NCBI GenBank assembly: GCA_013373635.1
Contig: JABXHN010000010.1
Coordinates: forward strand, 62,001-126,000
Length of the DNA: 64,000 nt
From: Flavobacteriaceae bacterium
GTDB lineage: Bacteria; Bacteroidota; Bacteroidia; Flavobacteriales; Flavobacteriaceae
Direction of reading: 5' to 3'
Part shown: positions 6,369 to 51,890 of the stretch, piece by piece
Position numbering within the stretch: position 1 is the stretch's first letter
Layout of the letters: the number at the start of each line of letters is the position of its first letter
Translations under genes and position numbers: made by a program
Notes under the pieces: model-generated
Seen by the model: only the letters and a program-made list of their open reading frames with translations
What the model was told of the DNA's origin: nothing
Database searches by the model: none

Positions 6369-6384
6369 TGTTCCACGTGGAACA
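6369..6384. promoter_or_regulatory. parS-like centromere site (perfect 16-bp palindrome)
   Basis: TGTTCCACGTGGAACA is a perfect palindrome identical to the ParB-binding parS sequence described in Pseudomonas-type chromosomes. It sits in the 46-nt gap between mnmG and the methyltransferase gene. A second identical copy lies 1.9 kb away on the other side of mnmG. Confidence 0.72.
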
Positions 6385-6390
6385 ATTTGA

Positions 6391-8259
6391 TTATCTTCCT
6401 AAAGCTACCAATAAAACACTTATGTCTGATGGAGAAACGCCACTGATTCGAGAAGCCTGTGCGATACTTACTGGTTGTATTGACTTTAGTTTTTCGCGAG
6501 CTTCAAAAGACAAAGATTTTAATTTTGAATAGTCAAAGTGTTCAGGAATTTTAACGTATTCCAAGCGGTGTAATTTATCAGCATTGTTCTTTTCCTTTTC
6601 AATGTATCCAGCATATTTGACTTGAATTTCTGCTTGTTCTAAAACCTCTACGTCTAGGTTATTTTCGTCAATATAAGAAGCAACTACATCTAACTTTCTA
6701 AGGTGTTCCAAGCTTACTTTTGGGCGAGAAAAAACTTTAAATAGTTTTCCCCCTTGCTTTACTGTAGCAGAACCAACCTCTTCTAAAATTGGATTGATTT
6801 GCTCTGGTGTAACAGAAGTTTCTTTAAAGAATTCTACAAACCCTAGAGATTCTTTCATCTTTTGCTCCATTCGGATCATACGATCTTGTTTTGCAATACC
6901 TAATTTATAGGCGCGGGCAGTTAGTCTGAAATCCGCATTGTCTTGGCGAAGTAAGGTTCTGTATTCCGCCCTAGAGGTAAACATACGATAAGGCTCTTCA
7001 GTTCCCTTGGTGATTAGATCATCAATCAAAACTCCAATATAGGCTTCGTCCCTTTGAAGCACAAAGGACTCCTCTTCGTTGATTTTTAAATGGGCATTAA
7101 TTCCGGCCATTAGACCTTGTGCTGCTGCTTCTTCATAGCCGGTGGTTCCATTGATTTGTCCTGCAAAAAATAGGTTGGAAATTAATTTAGTTTCCAAGCT
7201 GTGCTTTAATTGAGTAGGAGGGAAGTAGTCGTATTCGATGGCATAACCTGGTCTAAAAAACTTAACTTTTTCAAAGCCTTTTACAGAACGCAACGCCTTA
7301 AATTGAACATCTTCTGGAAGTGAAGTTGAGAATCCATTTACATACACTTCGACAGTATTCCACCCTTCTGGTTCAACAAAAATTTGATGAGCATCTTTAT
7401 CAGCAAAACGATTGATCTTGTCTTCAATAGAAGGACAATAACGAGGTCCTAAAGATTTGATTCTACCATTAAACATTGGAGATCGATCAAAACCTTCTTT
7501 TAAAAGATTGTGTACCTCAATAGAAGTATGCGTCATATAACAATCCAATTGGCGCTCCAAGGACTTAGTGTTTGTATAAGAAAATTTTGCAGGGATTGAA
7601 TCTCCTGGTTGAGGTATCATCAAATCGTAATTCAAGGATCTGCCATCAACTCTTGGTGGAGTACCTGTTTTCATTCTTCCAGAATCAAAACCTAAATCAA
7701 CTAATTGCTCGGTAATTCCTGTTGCTGCTTTTTCACCAGCACGTCCTCCTCCAAATTGCTTTTCTCCAATATGAATAAGGCCATTTAAAAAAGTACCATT
7801 AGTTAGAATTACAGCATCAGCTTCAATGGAAATTCCAAGGGATGTTTTAACTCCACATACTTTAGAATCTCTGATGATTAACTCATTGACCATGTCTTGA
7901 TAAAAATCGACGTTGGGTGTTTGCTCTAACATCAATCGCCAGTGCTCTGCAAAAAGCATGCGATCGTTTTGAGTTCTTGGACTCCACATCGCAGGACCTT
8001 TTGATTTATTGAGCATCTTAAATTGTATGGCTGAAGTATCAGATACAATTCCGCTATATCCTCCTAAGGCATCAATTTCACGAACTATTTGTCCTTTAGC
8101 AATTCCGCCCATAGCAGGATTACATGACATTTGAGCAATATTTTGCAATTGCATAGTCACTAATAGGGTAGAGGAACCCATATTAGCTGCCGCAGCTGCT
8201 GCTTCTGCACCCGCGTGTCCTCCACCTACAACTATTACATCGTACTTTTTATCGAACAT
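6391..8259 (-). CDS. mnmG: tRNA uridine-5-carboxymethylaminomethyl modification enzyme MnmG (GidA)
   Basis: FAD/NADH enzyme that, with MnmE, installs the carboxymethylaminomethyl group on U34 of certain tRNAs. The N-terminal FAD motif VVGGGHAGAEAA is at residues 10-21. The family signatures SCNPAMGGIAKGQ, FGGGRAGEKA, GLMAGINA and the C-terminal VSIAQASRISG region are all present. The 622-residue length is normal. It is encoded 3 nt after the ybeY stop in the same direction. Both flanks carry a perfect parS palindrome, recalling the gidA-parAB neighbourhood near origins in other phyla, although parAB is not seen here. Confidence 0.97.
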   Translation of the reverse strand: MFDKKYDVIVVGGGHAGAEAAAAAANMGSSTLLVTMQLQNIAQMSCNPAMGGIAKGQIVREIDALGGYSGIVSDTSAIQFKMLNKSKGPAMWSPRTQNDRMLFAEHWRLMLEQTPNVDFYQDMVNELIIRDSKVCGVKTSLGISIEADAVILTNGTFLNGLIHIGEKQFGGGRAGEKAATGITEQLVDLGFDSGRMKTGTPPRVDGRSLNYDLMIPQPGDSIPAKFSYTNTKSLERQLDCYMTHTSIEVHNLLKEGFDRSPMFNGRIKSLGPRYCPSIEDKINRFADKDAHQIFVEPEGWNTVEVYVNGFSTSLPEDVQFKALRSVKGFEKVKFFRPGYAIEYDYFPPTQLKHSLETKLISNLFFAGQINGTTGYEEAAAQGLMAGINAHLKINEEESFVLQRDEAYIGVLIDDLITKGTEEPYRMFTSRAEYRTLLRQDNADFRLTARAYKLGIAKQDRMIRMEQKMKESLGFVEFFKETSVTPEQINPILEEVGSATVKQGGKLFKVFSRPKVSLEHLRKLDVVASYIDENNLDVEVLEQAEIQVKYAGYIEKEKNNADKLHRLEYVKIPEHFDYSKLKSLSFEAREKLKSIQPVSIAQASRISGVSPSDISVLLVALGR

Positions 8260-8262
8260 AAT

Positions 8263-8682
8263 TTAGTGTTCCACGTGGAACATTTTAAGTTTTTCGTCTT
8301 CCTTTAGAGTCATCAATTCTTGTTCTTCATCCGTCTTGTCATTGTAATTCATTAAATGAAGTAGGCCGTGAACCATGACTCTGAGTAGCTCATTTTCAAA
8401 TGAAACATTGAAAACTACTGCATTTTCCTTAACGCGATCAACAGAAATAAAGATATCTCCTGAAACTATCTCATTTTCAACATAATTAAAGGTTATTATA
8501 TCTGTTAAAGTATTGTGATTCAAATACTTAACATTCATTTCATAGAGTTCTTCATCCGAAACAAACACATAATTTAAATCTGCTATCTCAAAATTCTCAG
8601 ATTTAGCTACATTTTGCAACCACAGGCTGATTTCATCAGCTTGTGTTAAGTCAAAATCAGTATTATAAGAATATTCGATCAC
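8263..8682 (-). CDS. ybeY: endoribonuclease YbeY, 16S rRNA maturation factor
   Basis: Zinc-dependent endoribonuclease involved in 16S rRNA 3' end maturation and ribosome quality control. The metal motif reads HGLLHLMNYND. The first two His ligands are present, while the third position is Asp rather than the His of E. coli; to my knowledge this is usual in Bacteroidota. The only plausible start is GTG at 8680-8682. The last codons (MFHVEH and stop) are made by a perfect parS palindrome, so the C-terminal tail is probably dictated by that DNA site. It leads the ybeY-mnmG-methyltransferase transcript. Confidence 0.9.
   Translation of the reverse strand: MIEYSYNTDFDLTQADEISLWLQNVAKSENFEIADLNYVFVSDEELYEMNVKYLNHNTLTDIITFNYVENEIVSGDIFISVDRVKENAVVFNVSFENELLRVMVHGLLHLMNYNDKTDEEQELMTLKEDEKLKMFHVEH
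8267..8282. promoter_or_regulatory. parS-like centromere site inside the 3' end of ybeY
   Basis: A second perfect TGTTCCACGTGGAACA palindrome. Read on the minus strand it encodes FHVEH and the flanking bases of the YbeY tail, ending just before the TAA. It is identical to the copy at 6369-6384. Confidence 0.72.
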
Positions 8683-14942: not shown

Positions 14943-17138
14943 TTAACGATCCGAAGCTTGGATAAGATTAAAATCCATTTGCCTTTTCTCTAGATTAGTT
15001 TGCTTGATACTTACAGTTACCTCATCTCCAAGTTGATAGGTTTTTTTAGTATTCACACCAATCATTGAATAGTGCAGTGGATCAAAAGTGTATAAATCAC
15101 CTGGTATATCTTTAATACGAACCATTCCCTCACATTTGTTTTCGATGATTTCAACATACATACCCCATTCAGTCACACCCGAAATAACACCTAAAAACTC
15201 ATCTTGATCTAAAGATTCCATGTATTTAATCTGCATATACTTGATCGATTCACGTTCTGCAGAAGTAGCCACAGCTTCCATTTTAGAACAGTGTTTACAA
15301 GCTTCTTCGATTACTTTTTGTTTTCTAGACTTAGCGCCATTTAAATAAAACTCTAAAAGGCGGTGAACCATTACATCTGGATAACGTCGGATCGGTGAAG
15401 TAAAATGGGTGTAGTATTCAAAAGCCAATCCATAATGACCAATGTTTTCAGTAGAATATTCCGCCTTAGACATGGATCGTATCGCAAGTGTATCTACTAA
15501 ATTCTGTTCTTTTTTTCCAACGACATCTTTGAGTAATTGATTGAGTGATTTACTCAAACTGAGATGGTCTTTTAAATTAAGACTGTGACCATAACGAGCA
15601 ACAACTTGGTTTAAAGCGGTTAGTTTATCTATATTTGGTTCATCGTGAACACGGTATACAAAGGTTTTTGGTGGATCTTGTTTTCCAATAAATTCAGCTA
15701 CTTTTTTATTAGCGAGTAACATGAATTCTTCAATGAGTTTATTAGCGTCTTTTGACTCTTTGAAAAAGACAGAGGTCGGTTGATTTTCTTGATTTAAATT
15801 GAATTTAACTTCGATCTTATCAAATGAAATAGCCCCAGAACTCATTCTCTTTTTTCTGAGTTTTTTAGCGAGTTTATCTAATGTAATAATCGCATCAACA
15901 AAAGTATCATCTACACTATAAGAAGAGGATCGAATCGAAATATGTTCTGGTATTTCATTGGACTTTGTTTCGATAATGTGTTGTGCTTCTTCGTATGAAA
16001 AACGCTCGTTTGAATCGATGACTGTTCTTCCGATCCACTGGTTTTTGATTTGAGCATTTTTATCGATAATAAATACGATCGAAAAAGTGTACTTTTCTTC
16101 ATTAGGGCGAAGTGAACAGGCTTGATTGGAGAGAATCTCTGGAAGCATAGGAACTACTCTATCTACTAAATAAACAGAAGTCGCTCTTGAAAATGCCTCA
16201 TCGTTTAACACGGTATCAAATTTTAAATAATGCGATACATCTGCAATATGGATTCCTATTTCATAATCTCCATTTTCTAAAGCAGTAAACGACAGCGCAT
16301 CATCAAAATCTTTAGCATCTTTTGGATCAATGGTAAAGGTAAGATCTGATCGCATATCTCTACGCTTTGCAATTTCATCTGCAGTAATGGAGGTGTCTAT
16401 TTGATCAGCGTATTCCAATACTTCTTTTGGAAATTCATGTGGTAATCCATAAGATGCTAATATGGAATGTATTTCTGTTTGATGTTCTCCTGGTTTTCCT
16501 AAAACTTCGATCACCTTTGCAGAAGGAGAGTCTGTTTTATCAGACCAATGTGTAAACTCAATAAGAACCTTATCACCGTCATTAGCCTTGTTTAAATCGG
16601 AAAGAGGCACGTAGAAATCCTTGTGTAACTTTGGATCAGAAGGTACAACAAAAGCAAATTTATCTTGTAAATCAACCCTACCTACAAATCTTGTTTTAAA
16701 TCGTTCTACAACACTAACTACTTCACCTTCAACTTTACTTCCTTTTCGTTGAGGGAATATGTAGACATTAACGATGTCTTTATTAAAAGCTTTATTGGTA
16801 TTTCTTCCAGAAATAAACACATCTTCATCTCTTCCTTCAATGCTTACATAAGCATTTCCTCTAGAAGTAATATCGATAACTCCTTTTTCGTATTTCTGAA
16901 AACTAGGTACTGCTTGATATTGACCCTTACGTACTTGTTTGACTGCATTTTTTTTCACTAAAAACTGAACTGCAGCAACCATTTGTCTCTTTAAAATCTC
17001 ATCCTGAAGATTGAGTTTATGAGCTATTTGTCTGTAAGTAAAGGATTTATTGGGAGCGTCATCTAAAAATTGCATTACTAATTTTGTAATCCCATTCTTT
17101 TGACTCGAATTCTTTTTATTTTTCTTTTTCTTTCCCAT
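14943..17138 (-). CDS. rnr: ribonuclease R
   Basis: Processive 3'-5' exoribonuclease that degrades structured RNA. The order of parts is a basic N terminus, a winged-helix-like segment (KSFTYRQIAHKLNL), cold-shock OB domains, the RNB catalytic domain with the metal-binding Asp cluster (TIDPKDAKDFDDALSF, about residue 270), HFTSPIRRYPDVMVHRLL, and a C-terminal S1 domain (LGVISGVTEWGMYVEI). The 731-residue length is normal. It is divergent from rpiB across the long AT-rich gap proposed here as an origin candidate. Confidence 0.96.
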   Translation of the reverse strand: MGKKKKNKKNSSQKNGITKLVMQFLDDAPNKSFTYRQIAHKLNLQDEILKRQMVAAVQFLVKKNAVKQVRKGQYQAVPSFQKYEKGVIDITSRGNAYVSIEGRDEDVFISGRNTNKAFNKDIVNVYIFPQRKGSKVEGEVVSVVERFKTRFVGRVDLQDKFAFVVPSDPKLHKDFYVPLSDLNKANDGDKVLIEFTHWSDKTDSPSAKVIEVLGKPGEHQTEIHSILASYGLPHEFPKEVLEYADQIDTSITADEIAKRRDMRSDLTFTIDPKDAKDFDDALSFTALENGDYEIGIHIADVSHYLKFDTVLNDEAFSRATSVYLVDRVVPMLPEILSNQACSLRPNEEKYTFSIVFIIDKNAQIKNQWIGRTVIDSNERFSYEEAQHIIETKSNEIPEHISIRSSSYSVDDTFVDAIITLDKLAKKLRKKRMSSGAISFDKIEVKFNLNQENQPTSVFFKESKDANKLIEEFMLLANKKVAEFIGKQDPPKTFVYRVHDEPNIDKLTALNQVVARYGHSLNLKDHLSLSKSLNQLLKDVVGKKEQNLVDTLAIRSMSKAEYSTENIGHYGLAFEYYTHFTSPIRRYPDVMVHRLLEFYLNGAKSRKQKVIEEACKHCSKMEAVATSAERESIKYMQIKYMESLDQDEFLGVISGVTEWGMYVEIIENKCEGMVRIKDIPGDLYTFDPLHYSMIGVNTKKTYQLGDEVTVSIKQTNLEKRQMDFNLIQASDR

Positions 17139-17696
17139 TACTTACAAAACTACATCCTATAAGTTTTCAAACAACGAAAGGACTAAAATGTTATAAACAC
17201 TTTTAAATACAATTATTATTTTATTTTTTATTTAAATGCATTTTTTATGATTATAATAGTGTGTTAATAAGGTTGATAATAAACTAGAGTCTTTTTGAAT
17301 ATCAATATCTTTTTTAGTTTTTCAACAAGTTTTCATTTAATTAAAACACAATATATCAATTAGTTGATTTACTTATTAAAAGCTGTTCATAAGTTGTGTT
17401 GACAACTAAAATTTAATAAGTATTTTTAAAATAAGTGTCAATAATTACAGTTTTTATTCTGATAAAAAGTCAACAAACTTTCAAAAGAAAACAACTATAG
17501 ATACAAGAATAATTATATAAGGGAATTGGTTTTAAACAGGCAATTTTTTAAACCTCAAATTTTAAGTCTTTTTATTAACAAGACTGTTAATAGCTAACTG
17601 ATTGGTATGGTGAATATTAAACAATACTTATTAATAAGTATGTTTATAATGACATTTTAGTGAATAGTTGTAAATTTACCCTATAAATATCTACTT
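17139..17696. other. AT-rich 558-bp gap between divergent rnr and rpiB; candidate replication origin
   Basis: No ORF or RNA gene is recognisable. The stretch is much more AT-rich than its flanks and contains repeated DnaA-box-like nonamers of the form TTATNAACA: at 17191-17199 (+), 17262-17270 (-), 17384-17392 (-), 17572-17580 (+) and 17641-17649 (-). Weaker relatives occur at 17319-17327 and 17397-17405. No canonical TTATCCACA is seen. Divergent flanking genes and parS-like sites 9-11 kb away are consistent with an origin region, but this is inference. It also must contain the rnr and rpiB promoters. Confidence 0.45.
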
Positions 17697-18128
17697 ATGA
17701 AAATCGCTATTGGAAATGATCACGCTGGTCCTTCTTATAAGGAGGCAATCGTAAACCTATTAAAAGAAAGAAATATTGAAGTTATCAACTACGGAACCAA
17801 CTCAGAGGACTCTGTAGATTATCCTGATTTTATTCACCCTGTTGCTGAATCTGTAGCTACAGGAGATTCTGATTTAGGAATCATTATATGTGGTTCTGGA
17901 AACGGAGCGGCAATAACCGCAAACAAACACCAAGAAATTAGAGCTGCTCTTTGTTGGAATAAAGAAATAGTGGCCTTAGCAAAACAACACAACAACGCTA
18001 ATATTCTAAGCTTACCAGCCAGATATATTTCAATACCGCAAGCGCTTGCAATGGTTGAAACTTTTTTAGACACTGAATTTGAAGGAGGAAGACACCAAAA
18101 CAGAATTGATAAAATTCCCTGCGCTTAA
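17697..18128 (+). CDS. rpiB: ribose-5-phosphate isomerase B
   Basis: Interconverts ribose-5-phosphate and ribulose-5-phosphate in the pentose phosphate pathway. At 143 residues it has the RpiB/LacAB fold signatures: GNDHAGPSYKEAI at the N terminus, YGTNSEDSVDYPDF, and the catalytic-Cys loop CGSGNGAAITANKH, with ARYIS further on. It is the first gene of a compact unit. The next ATG begins immediately after its TAA. Confidence 0.94.
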   Translation: MKIAIGNDHAGPSYKEAIVNLLKERNIEVINYGTNSEDSVDYPDFIHPVAESVATGDSDLGIIICGSGNGAAITANKHQEIRAALCWNKEIVALAKQHNNANILSLPARYISIPQALAMVETFLDTEFEGGRHQNRIDKIPCA

Positions 18129-49172: not shown

Positions 49173-51890
49173 CTATAAATTGTAAATCATCCTCAAAGAA
49201 ACATATCTGGGTTGGATAAATGTCTCAAATGAAAACACAGAAATATTTGTCGCATTGTTTCTGATCTGTGAGGCGACATCCAATAAATTAGATCCATTGA
49301 GCTCATATTCCCACTTGGAATCTTTATCGCGTTTATAAAAAATCGAAGCGTTTAAATTTTTGAAATACTGAACATTTTGATTGTTGTTGATCTGTTTGAT
49401 GTAAGAAAAGTCAGATTTAAAGGTCAATTTATCTTTAATAAGGGCATCAAATGAGGTGGTTAATGAATTTCTCTCAAATTGTGTTTTTCTTGCCCCTTGA
49501 TTATTACTTGTCAAACTGTGATTCAAATTGATTCGCAGGTTCGGTGCATACCTAAAACTAGTTCGGATACCTGGAGTAAGACTTCGAGTAACTCCTTTAT
49601 TTAGGGATGGAACTTCTTGTATGAACTGATAAATCTTAGAGTAATTTATGGCACTGTTGAGGTTTACTTTTATTTTCCCATAGGTTTTTTCAATCCGCCC
49701 AAAAACATTAAAATTTTCATCGTTAAAATTCGAGTTAAAAAAACTACCTGTTCGAATGACATTTTCAAAAGAAGTCACAGAGCGGATTTGATCGAGATTC
49801 GAGGTGTAAGCAGCGCGAATAAAAACATTGGTGTAGTTAAATAAATTGAAGCTTCGATACAGCAAACTCAAATTGTGTGCTAATGCATTTTCTAACTCAG
49901 GGGCACCGTATTGAAAACTATTGTAAGAGTTGATGCGCAAGCCTCTAGAGAGTCTTGTGATATCGGTAAATTGATTGATGATGTTGTAGTTGAATGTTAA
50001 AGATTCACTTTTCTTAAATTGAATTCGCGTTTCAAAATCTGGAAGAACTTTGATAAAATTCGTTTTGTAATCGATTCCTGATTGGGTGTTGAGAGTGGTG
50101 TAATTTCTCAAACTAAATCCAGGGGTTACCGTAAAAATACCTGATTTAAAACGAAGGTGAGCGCTGAGGTAATAATCGTAAAATTGATAAGCTGTTGTAT
50201 TGTTAAATTCAAAGGCAGAAGTAGTTGCTGCAGCTGCGATTTGATCATTTCCAATCCTTTGAAACAAGTCAGTCTCTAAGTCCTGTCGACTGTAAATTCC
50301 TCCTAGGGTTACATTTAAATTACTTTTGTTATTGATGATGTGGTAATAGTCTACCTTGGCATCGAGTTGTTGTGATGTGATGAGTTGATTTTGACCAATA
50401 TCAAATTGTTCAAGGTCCGTAAAGAAACCAAGAGCAGCTGCTGTCGTATCAAAAGCACTTCCCTGAGATCCATTGGCATCAATTAGCAAGTTGTAAAAAG
50501 GATTTTCTTTTTTGTACAACTGTTGAATTTCAGCCGCTATAATATTATTTTCATCAAGTGTGAAATAGTAATTCAACTCTTGATTTAGAATGGCAGGTGT
50601 AATGGTTTCTTTTTCAGTAGTACGCCCGATGATGGAAGAAAGGGTATTTAGTTCTTGGCTGTTTTCAGACAGACGACCAAAAAATTTGTAATCCAATTGA
50701 TGATTGTAATTCGGTTTATAGCTAAGGCTCAATCGAGTCAGTGCCTGATTTGATTCCTCAACACTTGCTTCATCAGTGTTTTCATCTGGAATCAGTAAAC
50801 TGGAATTCGTGTATTGGATTTCTCGTTGTTCAAGCGCATTGACAAGGCTGTAGTTGTATATAAAAAAACCACTGATGTCGAATTGTTTGGTAGGACTGTA
50901 GCTAAAATTTAATGATCCCAATTTATTTTCGATCCGTTGCGCATTGTTTTGGTTCGTATTAAAACTAATATCATTATTTCCTAAGTTGATATTGGTACCA
51001 CTCCTATTTTCGGAGGTTCTCGTTCCCGATGAAAATCCTTGGAGGTCTCTTCTGCTAATCGCAATTTCACCAATATTATTGAGGTCTCCGATAAAATTGA
51101 TGCTATACTTAGGATTGTAGAAAAATAATTTGGGTTGCGCTAAGTAAAGGGATTCCTTTTCAGAATCACCATAGCCGCCTTTAATGTTCCCAAAGAGGAA
51201 ATTTTCTTTACCCTGTTTCAGCTTGATATTGATCGCAAAGTTATCCTGATTGTTTCGAACACTAGATAGCTGATTGACGTTTGAATAGTTACGTAAAACT
51301 TGAATTTTATCAACAGCACTCGAGGGAATATTTTTAGTTCCGATCTTGGTGTCTCCTTCAAAAAATTCTTTTCCATTGACCAAGAGTTTGTTTACCACTT
51401 TACCCTCTACTTCTATTTGATTGTTCTCATTTATTTCAACGCCAGGAAGGTTGTCTAAAATATCCTCAAGTTTCCGTTCGGTTCCGTTTTTAAAGGAATC
51501 TGCATTGTAAATAATCGTATCGCCACTTACGGTAACGGGAAGTTTTACAACTACTTCATCAAGAACAATATCATTGCGAAGTACAAAGTTCTTTTCGACG
51601 GGTTCTTTCAAAACAATAAGTTCCTCGTTTAGCGTGCGAAGTCCAAAAGCGCTTACTTGAATTTTATAGGTTTTGTTGGAACTAATTTGCAACTCAAATC
51701 GACCTTCAGCATTGGTGATACCATAGGTTTCCATTGCATTTGATTCTTTGTCTAACAAAACAACACTTGCCATTTCGATGGGTTGGTTGACACTGTCTTT
51801 TACCACACCCTTAAAAGCGACTTGAGCTTGCGCTAATGAAATGCCCCATCCCATTAACAAACTAATAATATAGGTTTTTGGACTGATCAT
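49173..51890 (-). CDS. outer-membrane beta-barrel protein with carboxypeptidase-like plug (TonB-receptor-like)
   Basis: The 905-residue protein has a signal peptide (SLLMGWGISLAQAQ), an N-terminal carboxypeptidase-regulatory-like domain (VAFKGVVKDSVNQPIEMASV, about 24-105), a plug-like region (LEDILDNLPGVEINENNQIEVEGK, VNGKEFFEGD) and a long barrel rich in alternating aromatic residues. This matches the Bacteroidota family of TonB-receptor-like proteins that lack a SusD partner. The substrate is unknown. The GLPGLI gene abuts its start without a gap, so they form one unit. Confidence 0.86.
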   Translation of the reverse strand: MISPKTYIISLLMGWGISLAQAQVAFKGVVKDSVNQPIEMASVVLLDKESNAMETYGITNAEGRFELQISSNKTYKIQVSAFGLRTLNEELIVLKEPVEKNFVLRNDIVLDEVVVKLPVTVSGDTIIYNADSFKNGTERKLEDILDNLPGVEINENNQIEVEGKVVNKLLVNGKEFFEGDTKIGTKNIPSSAVDKIQVLRNYSNVNQLSSVRNNQDNFAINIKLKQGKENFLFGNIKGGYGDSEKESLYLAQPKLFFYNPKYSINFIGDLNNIGEIAISRRDLQGFSSGTRTSENRSGTNINLGNNDISFNTNQNNAQRIENKLGSLNFSYSPTKQFDISGFFIYNYSLVNALEQREIQYTNSSLLIPDENTDEASVEESNQALTRLSLSYKPNYNHQLDYKFFGRLSENSQELNTLSSIIGRTTEKETITPAILNQELNYYFTLDENNIIAAEIQQLYKKENPFYNLLIDANGSQGSAFDTTAAALGFFTDLEQFDIGQNQLITSQQLDAKVDYYHIINNKSNLNVTLGGIYSRQDLETDLFQRIGNDQIAAAATTSAFEFNNTTAYQFYDYYLSAHLRFKSGIFTVTPGFSLRNYTTLNTQSGIDYKTNFIKVLPDFETRIQFKKSESLTFNYNIINQFTDITRLSRGLRINSYNSFQYGAPELENALAHNLSLLYRSFNLFNYTNVFIRAAYTSNLDQIRSVTSFENVIRTGSFFNSNFNDENFNVFGRIEKTYGKIKVNLNSAINYSKIYQFIQEVPSLNKGVTRSLTPGIRTSFRYAPNLRINLNHSLTSNNQGARKTQFERNSLTTSFDALIKDKLTFKSDFSYIKQINNNQNVQYFKNLNASIFYKRDKDSKWEYELNGSNLLDVASQIRNNATNISVFSFETFIQPRYVSLRMIYNL

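Follow-up and report, generated by a model that had tools for sequence, protein, structure and literature searches.

In B. subtilis, box-bound DnaA extends along a series of trinucleotides (consensus 3'-GAT-5'), one DNA strand being stretched in the process, and the basal unwinding system (BUS) of this bacterium includes DnaA-boxes #6/#7 and DnaA-trios (PMC6669920, PMC8287927). According to the authors who described the trios, there may be deviant trios in which the middle adenine is missing. Lineage-specific box variants, together with changes at DnaA position 435, have been described in Epsilonproteobacteria, where a C-to-A change at box position 6 is tolerated, although few boxes have A6 and T5 is invariant; DnaA positions 399, 423, 432–435 and 438–439 were described as base-contacting in the same work (PMC5043019). 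Within the family Flavobacteriaceae, Ori-Finder 2022 placed the oriC of Mariniflexile 'adjacent to mnmG', and the skew did not agree with dnaA (PMC11278836); the oriC of Algorimicrobium was likewise predicted at mnmG (PMC12843772).

The window analyzed here, namely the whole stretch of 64,000 nucleotides, belongs to contig C32 (247,567 bp) in the draft assembly (2.53 Mb) of a Flavobacteriaceae bacterium. Judging from its sequence, the gap that separates the genes rnr and rpiB is very probably the chromosomal replication origin (oriC). Like origins of the E. coli/B. subtilis type, it has a cluster of 9-mers on both strands, an unstable AT-rich tract and a skew switch, with mnmG and parS nearby; unlike them, it lies away from dnaA, between rnr and rpiB, and its boxes are mostly TTATNAACA, not TTATNCACA. 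The tandem boxes, the short spacer, the element phased at 3 nt on the opening side and the A/T tract resemble the BUS of B. subtilis. However, the triplets have the form 3'-RNT-5', with the middle base free or G/T instead of a fixed A, and the tract ends, about 71 bp away, at a box of opposite orientation. As in Epsilonproteobacteria, a lineage-specific box occurs together with a change at DnaA position 435, but here A6 predominates and position 5 is not fixed. The predictions for Mariniflexile and Algorimicrobium concern the same family and put the origin away from dnaA in the same neighborhood (9 kb separate mnmG from the gap in the present genome), but they name mnmG rather than the rnr–rpiB gap and describe no core module. 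The origins named after mnmG may be the same origin as the gap. A literature search, with DoriC records outside it, found no published report that names the rnr–rpiB gap as an origin. What is new here is a family-wide core with position-6-A boxes and deviant phased triplets, for which a putative mechanism is given below.

Location and Composition of the Gap

The candidate oriC (17139–17696, 558 bp; C32:79,139–79,696) takes up exactly the space between rnr (14943–17138, minus strand) and rpiB (17697–18128, plus strand). The initial annotation had described it as the longest non-coding and most AT-rich stretch of the window, flanked by divergent genes, and this description holds: the next non-coding stretch in the ORF lists has a length of about 295 bp, and the GC content is 20.8% in the gap vs. 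37.6% in the window. A stability scan of contigs C32 and C34 of the same genome (547 kb) revealed that the least stable 500 bp are those of the rnr–rpiB gap, i.e., by predicted duplex stability the gap contains the easily melted AT-rich element expected of an oriC. A search for non-coding RNA found no Rfam family at 17139–17696.

DnaA-Box Cluster

Five TTATNAACA nonamers on both strands, noticed earlier by eye, were recovered at positions 17191 (+), 17262 (−), 17384 (−), 17572 (+) and 17641 (−). They account for five of the six such words in the window, the sixth being located at 51307. In shuffled sequences that kept the gap's own composition, the mean count was 0.24–0.31 and the maximum was 4, so that none of the 8,000 trials reached five. 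When the TTTT and TTGT relatives of the word were included (pattern TT[AGT]TN[AC]ACA), the gap was found to hold a cluster of eight boxes, as expected of an oriC, whereas the densest other 558-bp stretch in C32 and C34, with overlapping frames of the cluster excluded, held four.

The candidate boxes start with box1 (TTATAAACA, 17191–17199, plus strand) and box2 (TTATTAACA, 17262–17270, minus strand). Box2 is abutted by a degenerate box (TTATCAACC, 17271–17279, minus strand), whose TTAT half is retained in relatives and which in the window is one base off TTATCAACA. Then follow a weaker box TTTTCAACA (17319–17327, plus strand), the box TTATGAACA (17384–17392, minus strand) and, 4 bp from the latter, the box TTGTCAACA (17397–17405, minus strand), a word that is enriched in the gaps of the family. 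A weaker box TTTTAAACA (17530–17538, plus strand) precedes a second copy of TTATTAACA (17572–17580, plus strand), the alignment block of which is among the best conserved outside the core, and the last box is TTATAAACA (17641–17649, minus strand). The boxes at 17397 and 17271–17279 were added to the earlier reading. A near-perfect inverted repeat of 18 bp (ATACTTATT/AATAAGTAT, 17624–17641) was also observed upstream of rpiB, next to the last box.

A strict word search found no canonical TTATNCACA in the gap. Its absence, which the initial annotation had regarded as the main weakness of the origin reading, is a lineage trait, judging from the sequences compared: A6 is the common form in the family, and the DnaA of the family differs from that of E. 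coli at two base-contacting positions.

Conservation in Related Genomes

Eighty named genomes were collected by means of Rnr, including Maribacter, Zobellia, Muricauda, Flavobacterium, Aquimarina, Winogradskyella and others. Conservation of the nonamers in the same gap of relatives had been proposed as a check of the origin reading, and it was borne out: the density of boxes within 700 bp upstream of rnr was 2.83/kb vs. 0.27/kb elsewhere in the same loci, i.e., about ten times higher. In a set anchored on rpiB, 71 boxes were observed in 22 gaps vs. 5.5 expected. As the loci share ancestry, numbers of loci are not numbers of independent events. What is informative is the comparison within one and the same gap, where the alignment shows a few conserved blocks while most of the sequence drifts. 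Among the conserved blocks, promoter-like ones were found near the rnr start and the rpiB start. Exact boxes are scarce in or absent from the gap of several relatives, e.g., L059 and L060. Overall, the gap is conserved in relatives as an oriC should be, and the same putative start site, with boxes of a form specific to the family, occurs across Flavobacteriaceae.

A conserved core was present in 73–74 of about 80 Flavobacteriaceae loci. Its elements follow one another in a fixed order, namely box1, an A/T tract, five phased triplets (3'-RNT-5'), a 2-bp spacer, box2 and the degenerate abutting box. In the aligned loci, box1 is followed by ~45 bp of A/T, ATGATGGTTATNATRG, two free bases and box2, which on the plus strand reads TGTTNATA and is near-invariant in the family. 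Box1 and box2 are oppositely oriented, and the distance between them is 69–73 bp (about 71) across the family, with box1 marking the far edge of the proposed opening region. In the window, the A/T tract (17200–17244, 91% A+T) is proposed to be the DNA unwinding element by its composition and low predicted stability; the least stable 50 bp of the gap start at 17211. The five triplets TTA-TGA-TTA-TAA-TAG (17245–17259, plus strand) are DnaA-trio-like (3'-RNT-5') and are separated from box2 by the spacer (17260–17261), which is constant in length and variable in its bases. At the five positions 3 bp apart beside box2, T had a mean frequency of 0.95 (n = 73 loci, picked by the two boxes alone). The third base of the triplets is mostly a purine, so that 5'-(TNR)5-3' becomes 3'-(RNT)5-5' when read away from box2. 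The assembly contains one exact match of the whole module.

DnaA Protein and Family-Specific Boxes

The gene dnaA is located on contig C34, far from the gap. Its neighborhood was considered as an origin and rejected, since no boxes were found within ~1.5 kb. In the family, the boxes have the form TT[A/G/T]TN[A/C]ACA, where position 6 is mostly A rather than C. A comparison with domain IV of E. coli DnaA (PDB 1J1V) showed that R399, D433, H434 and H439 are kept in this DnaA, while P423 and T435 are both replaced by A. The A423/A435 pair is common to the sampled Flavobacteriaceae and several sister families; other Bacteroidota have K423 and S/T435. The joint occurrence of A423/A435 and position-6-A boxes is, in the sequences compared, a correlation.

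GC Skew and Chromosome Layout

A GC-skew switch at the gap had been named as a further check of the origin reading, and this check was passed as well. In C32, the best single change point of the skew was 79,500, from minus to plus, inside the gap; the bootstrap gave a 16–84% range of 76.0–84.5 kb and a broad 95% range of 62.0–99.5 kb that includes mnmG. Three complete relatives were sampled every 180–200 kb, and in each of them the minus-to-plus switch fell, at this sampling, in the interval with the same gap, as expected of an oriC. In G032, it was found at 1.01–1.21 Mb (gap at 1.19 Mb), and in G025 at 0.81–1.01 Mb (gap at 0.91 Mb). In G036, the switch coincides with the ends of the record, which was opened inside the gap. 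In all three, the reverse switch lies roughly across the chromosome from the gap. On C34, the skew goes from positive to negative near 169.5 kb, in the direction predicted for a terminus. Coding-strand bias from long open frames was left out of the analysis as too noisy. A likely terminus region was observed at C34 ~165,000–169,500; the 500-bp stretch that ranks second for low stability in the 547 kb starts there, at 165,261.

parS-Like Sites and ParB

The gene mnmG (gidA; 6391–8259, minus strand; Pfam GIDA 1e-161) is a classical neighbor of replication origins. The two perfect parS-like sites reported at 9–11 kb from the gap flank it: the exact palindrome GTTCCACGTGGAAC occurs at its downstream end (6370–6383) and at its upstream end (8268–8281), and no third copy exists in the 2.53-Mb assembly. 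A profile search revealed a ParB family match above the cut-off on contig C70. By sequence, the two exact palindromes, close to the candidate origin and accompanied by a ParB gene elsewhere in the assembly, have what is expected of a parS centromere (ParABS). A second, weak ParB-family match, below the curated cut-off, was found at C52:3064–3591 and perhaps belongs to a mobile element. In four relatives (L083, L093, L096 and L117), exact parS pairs ~1.9 kb apart are located 5–12 kb away on the rnr side.

Proposed Mechanism and Alternative Explanations

The gap combines box enrichment, conservation, a skew switch, low duplex stability and proximity to parS. From these features we infer DnaA binding, the place and polarity of opening, helicase loading, initiation and ParB action at the gap, as follows. 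DnaA, encoded far off on C34, would bind the cluster of family-specific boxes. ATP-DnaA would spread from box2 and the abutting degenerate box over the phased triplets and open the A/T tract, the far side of which would be bounded by the oppositely oriented box1. After opening, helicases would load and forks would go both ways, and the newly formed origins would be segregated by ParB acting at the parS pair that flanks mnmG.

It could be argued that the origin adjoins mnmG, 9 kb off, and that the gap is merely a DnaA-titration or regulatory site, given that mnmG is flanked by the parS pair, lies within the 95% range of the skew change point and is the gene named by Ori-Finder 2022 in both Flavobacteriaceae reports (PMC11278836, PMC12843772). 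However, only two box-like sites are located near mnmG vs. eight in the gap, the best change point and the least stable region are in the gap, and the reports may designate the same origin by mnmG as an indicator gene; we consider this explanation very improbable. Still less probable is an ordinary promoter function, in which the gap would drive both rnr and rpiB, would owe its AT-richness to this role and would contain the conserved module as a regulatory element of rnr. The divergent genes and the promoter-like blocks near both gene starts agree with such a function, but it would leave the skew switch and parS unexplained. Moreover, the module and the box cluster are not tied to the rnr start: they occur together at a distance from rnr of ~2.1 kb in G060 and G136 and of ~0.8 kb in Aquimarina, which separates the module from the rnr promoter.

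Another question arises even if the gap is the origin, namely whether the phased triplets are a DnaA-trio. The strand relation of box and trio is taken here from the B. subtilis sequence and the 3'→5' notation of the BUS papers. A box or tandem boxes within 16 bp are present here, since box2 lies at 2 bp and is abutted by the degenerate box. A run of three or more 3'-NAN-5' triplets (consensus 3'-GAT-5') was not found in the conserved frame: the middle A occurs in the proximal triplet(s) only, and the conserved form is 3'-(RNT)5-5'. The triplets are therefore not a trio by the published rule, as the non-proximal ones lack the middle adenine. In most relatives, the box-proximal TAG (3'-GAT-5') is the sole triplet that fits the consensus, and the triplets could instead be the site of another origin protein or a DNA-shape feature, to which we assign something close to an even chance. 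On the other hand, their position, strand, polarity, 3-nt phase and spacer, within the limit of 0–16 bp, are all compatible with a trio, and variants without the middle adenine were expected by the trio authors. Because deviant trios are allowed by these authors, we hold with moderate confidence that the triplets probably act like a DnaA-trio, without being classed as one.

Flavobacteriaceae might thus share one origin architecture, in which DnaA with A423 and A435, position-6-A boxes and a deviant trio (3'-RNT-5') would open the DNA between inverted boxes ~71 bp apart; this generalization is tentative, and we rate it slightly below even. If true, it would provide an example of the 'deviant trio' class suspected by the trio authors. 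The core can serve to recognize by sequence the origin in a large family, where it is often assigned to dnaA or loosely to mnmG. With the origin precisely placed, growth rates can be estimated from metagenome coverage, and origin-based vectors can be built. In addition, the family is a natural test of joint change in the base-reading residues of DnaA and the box, and the phased triplets are a natural test of the strictness of the trio rule in origin opening.

Occurrence Outside the Family

In other families, whose origins were not located, the core pattern with one mismatch was found only at the level of the reversed control. In the family f5 of the same order, domain IV of DnaA is very different (T423, S435, M438 and Y439 in L265–L267), and in its member G053 rpiB and rnr are co-directional. 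Therefore, the origin and the box of f5 are probably different.
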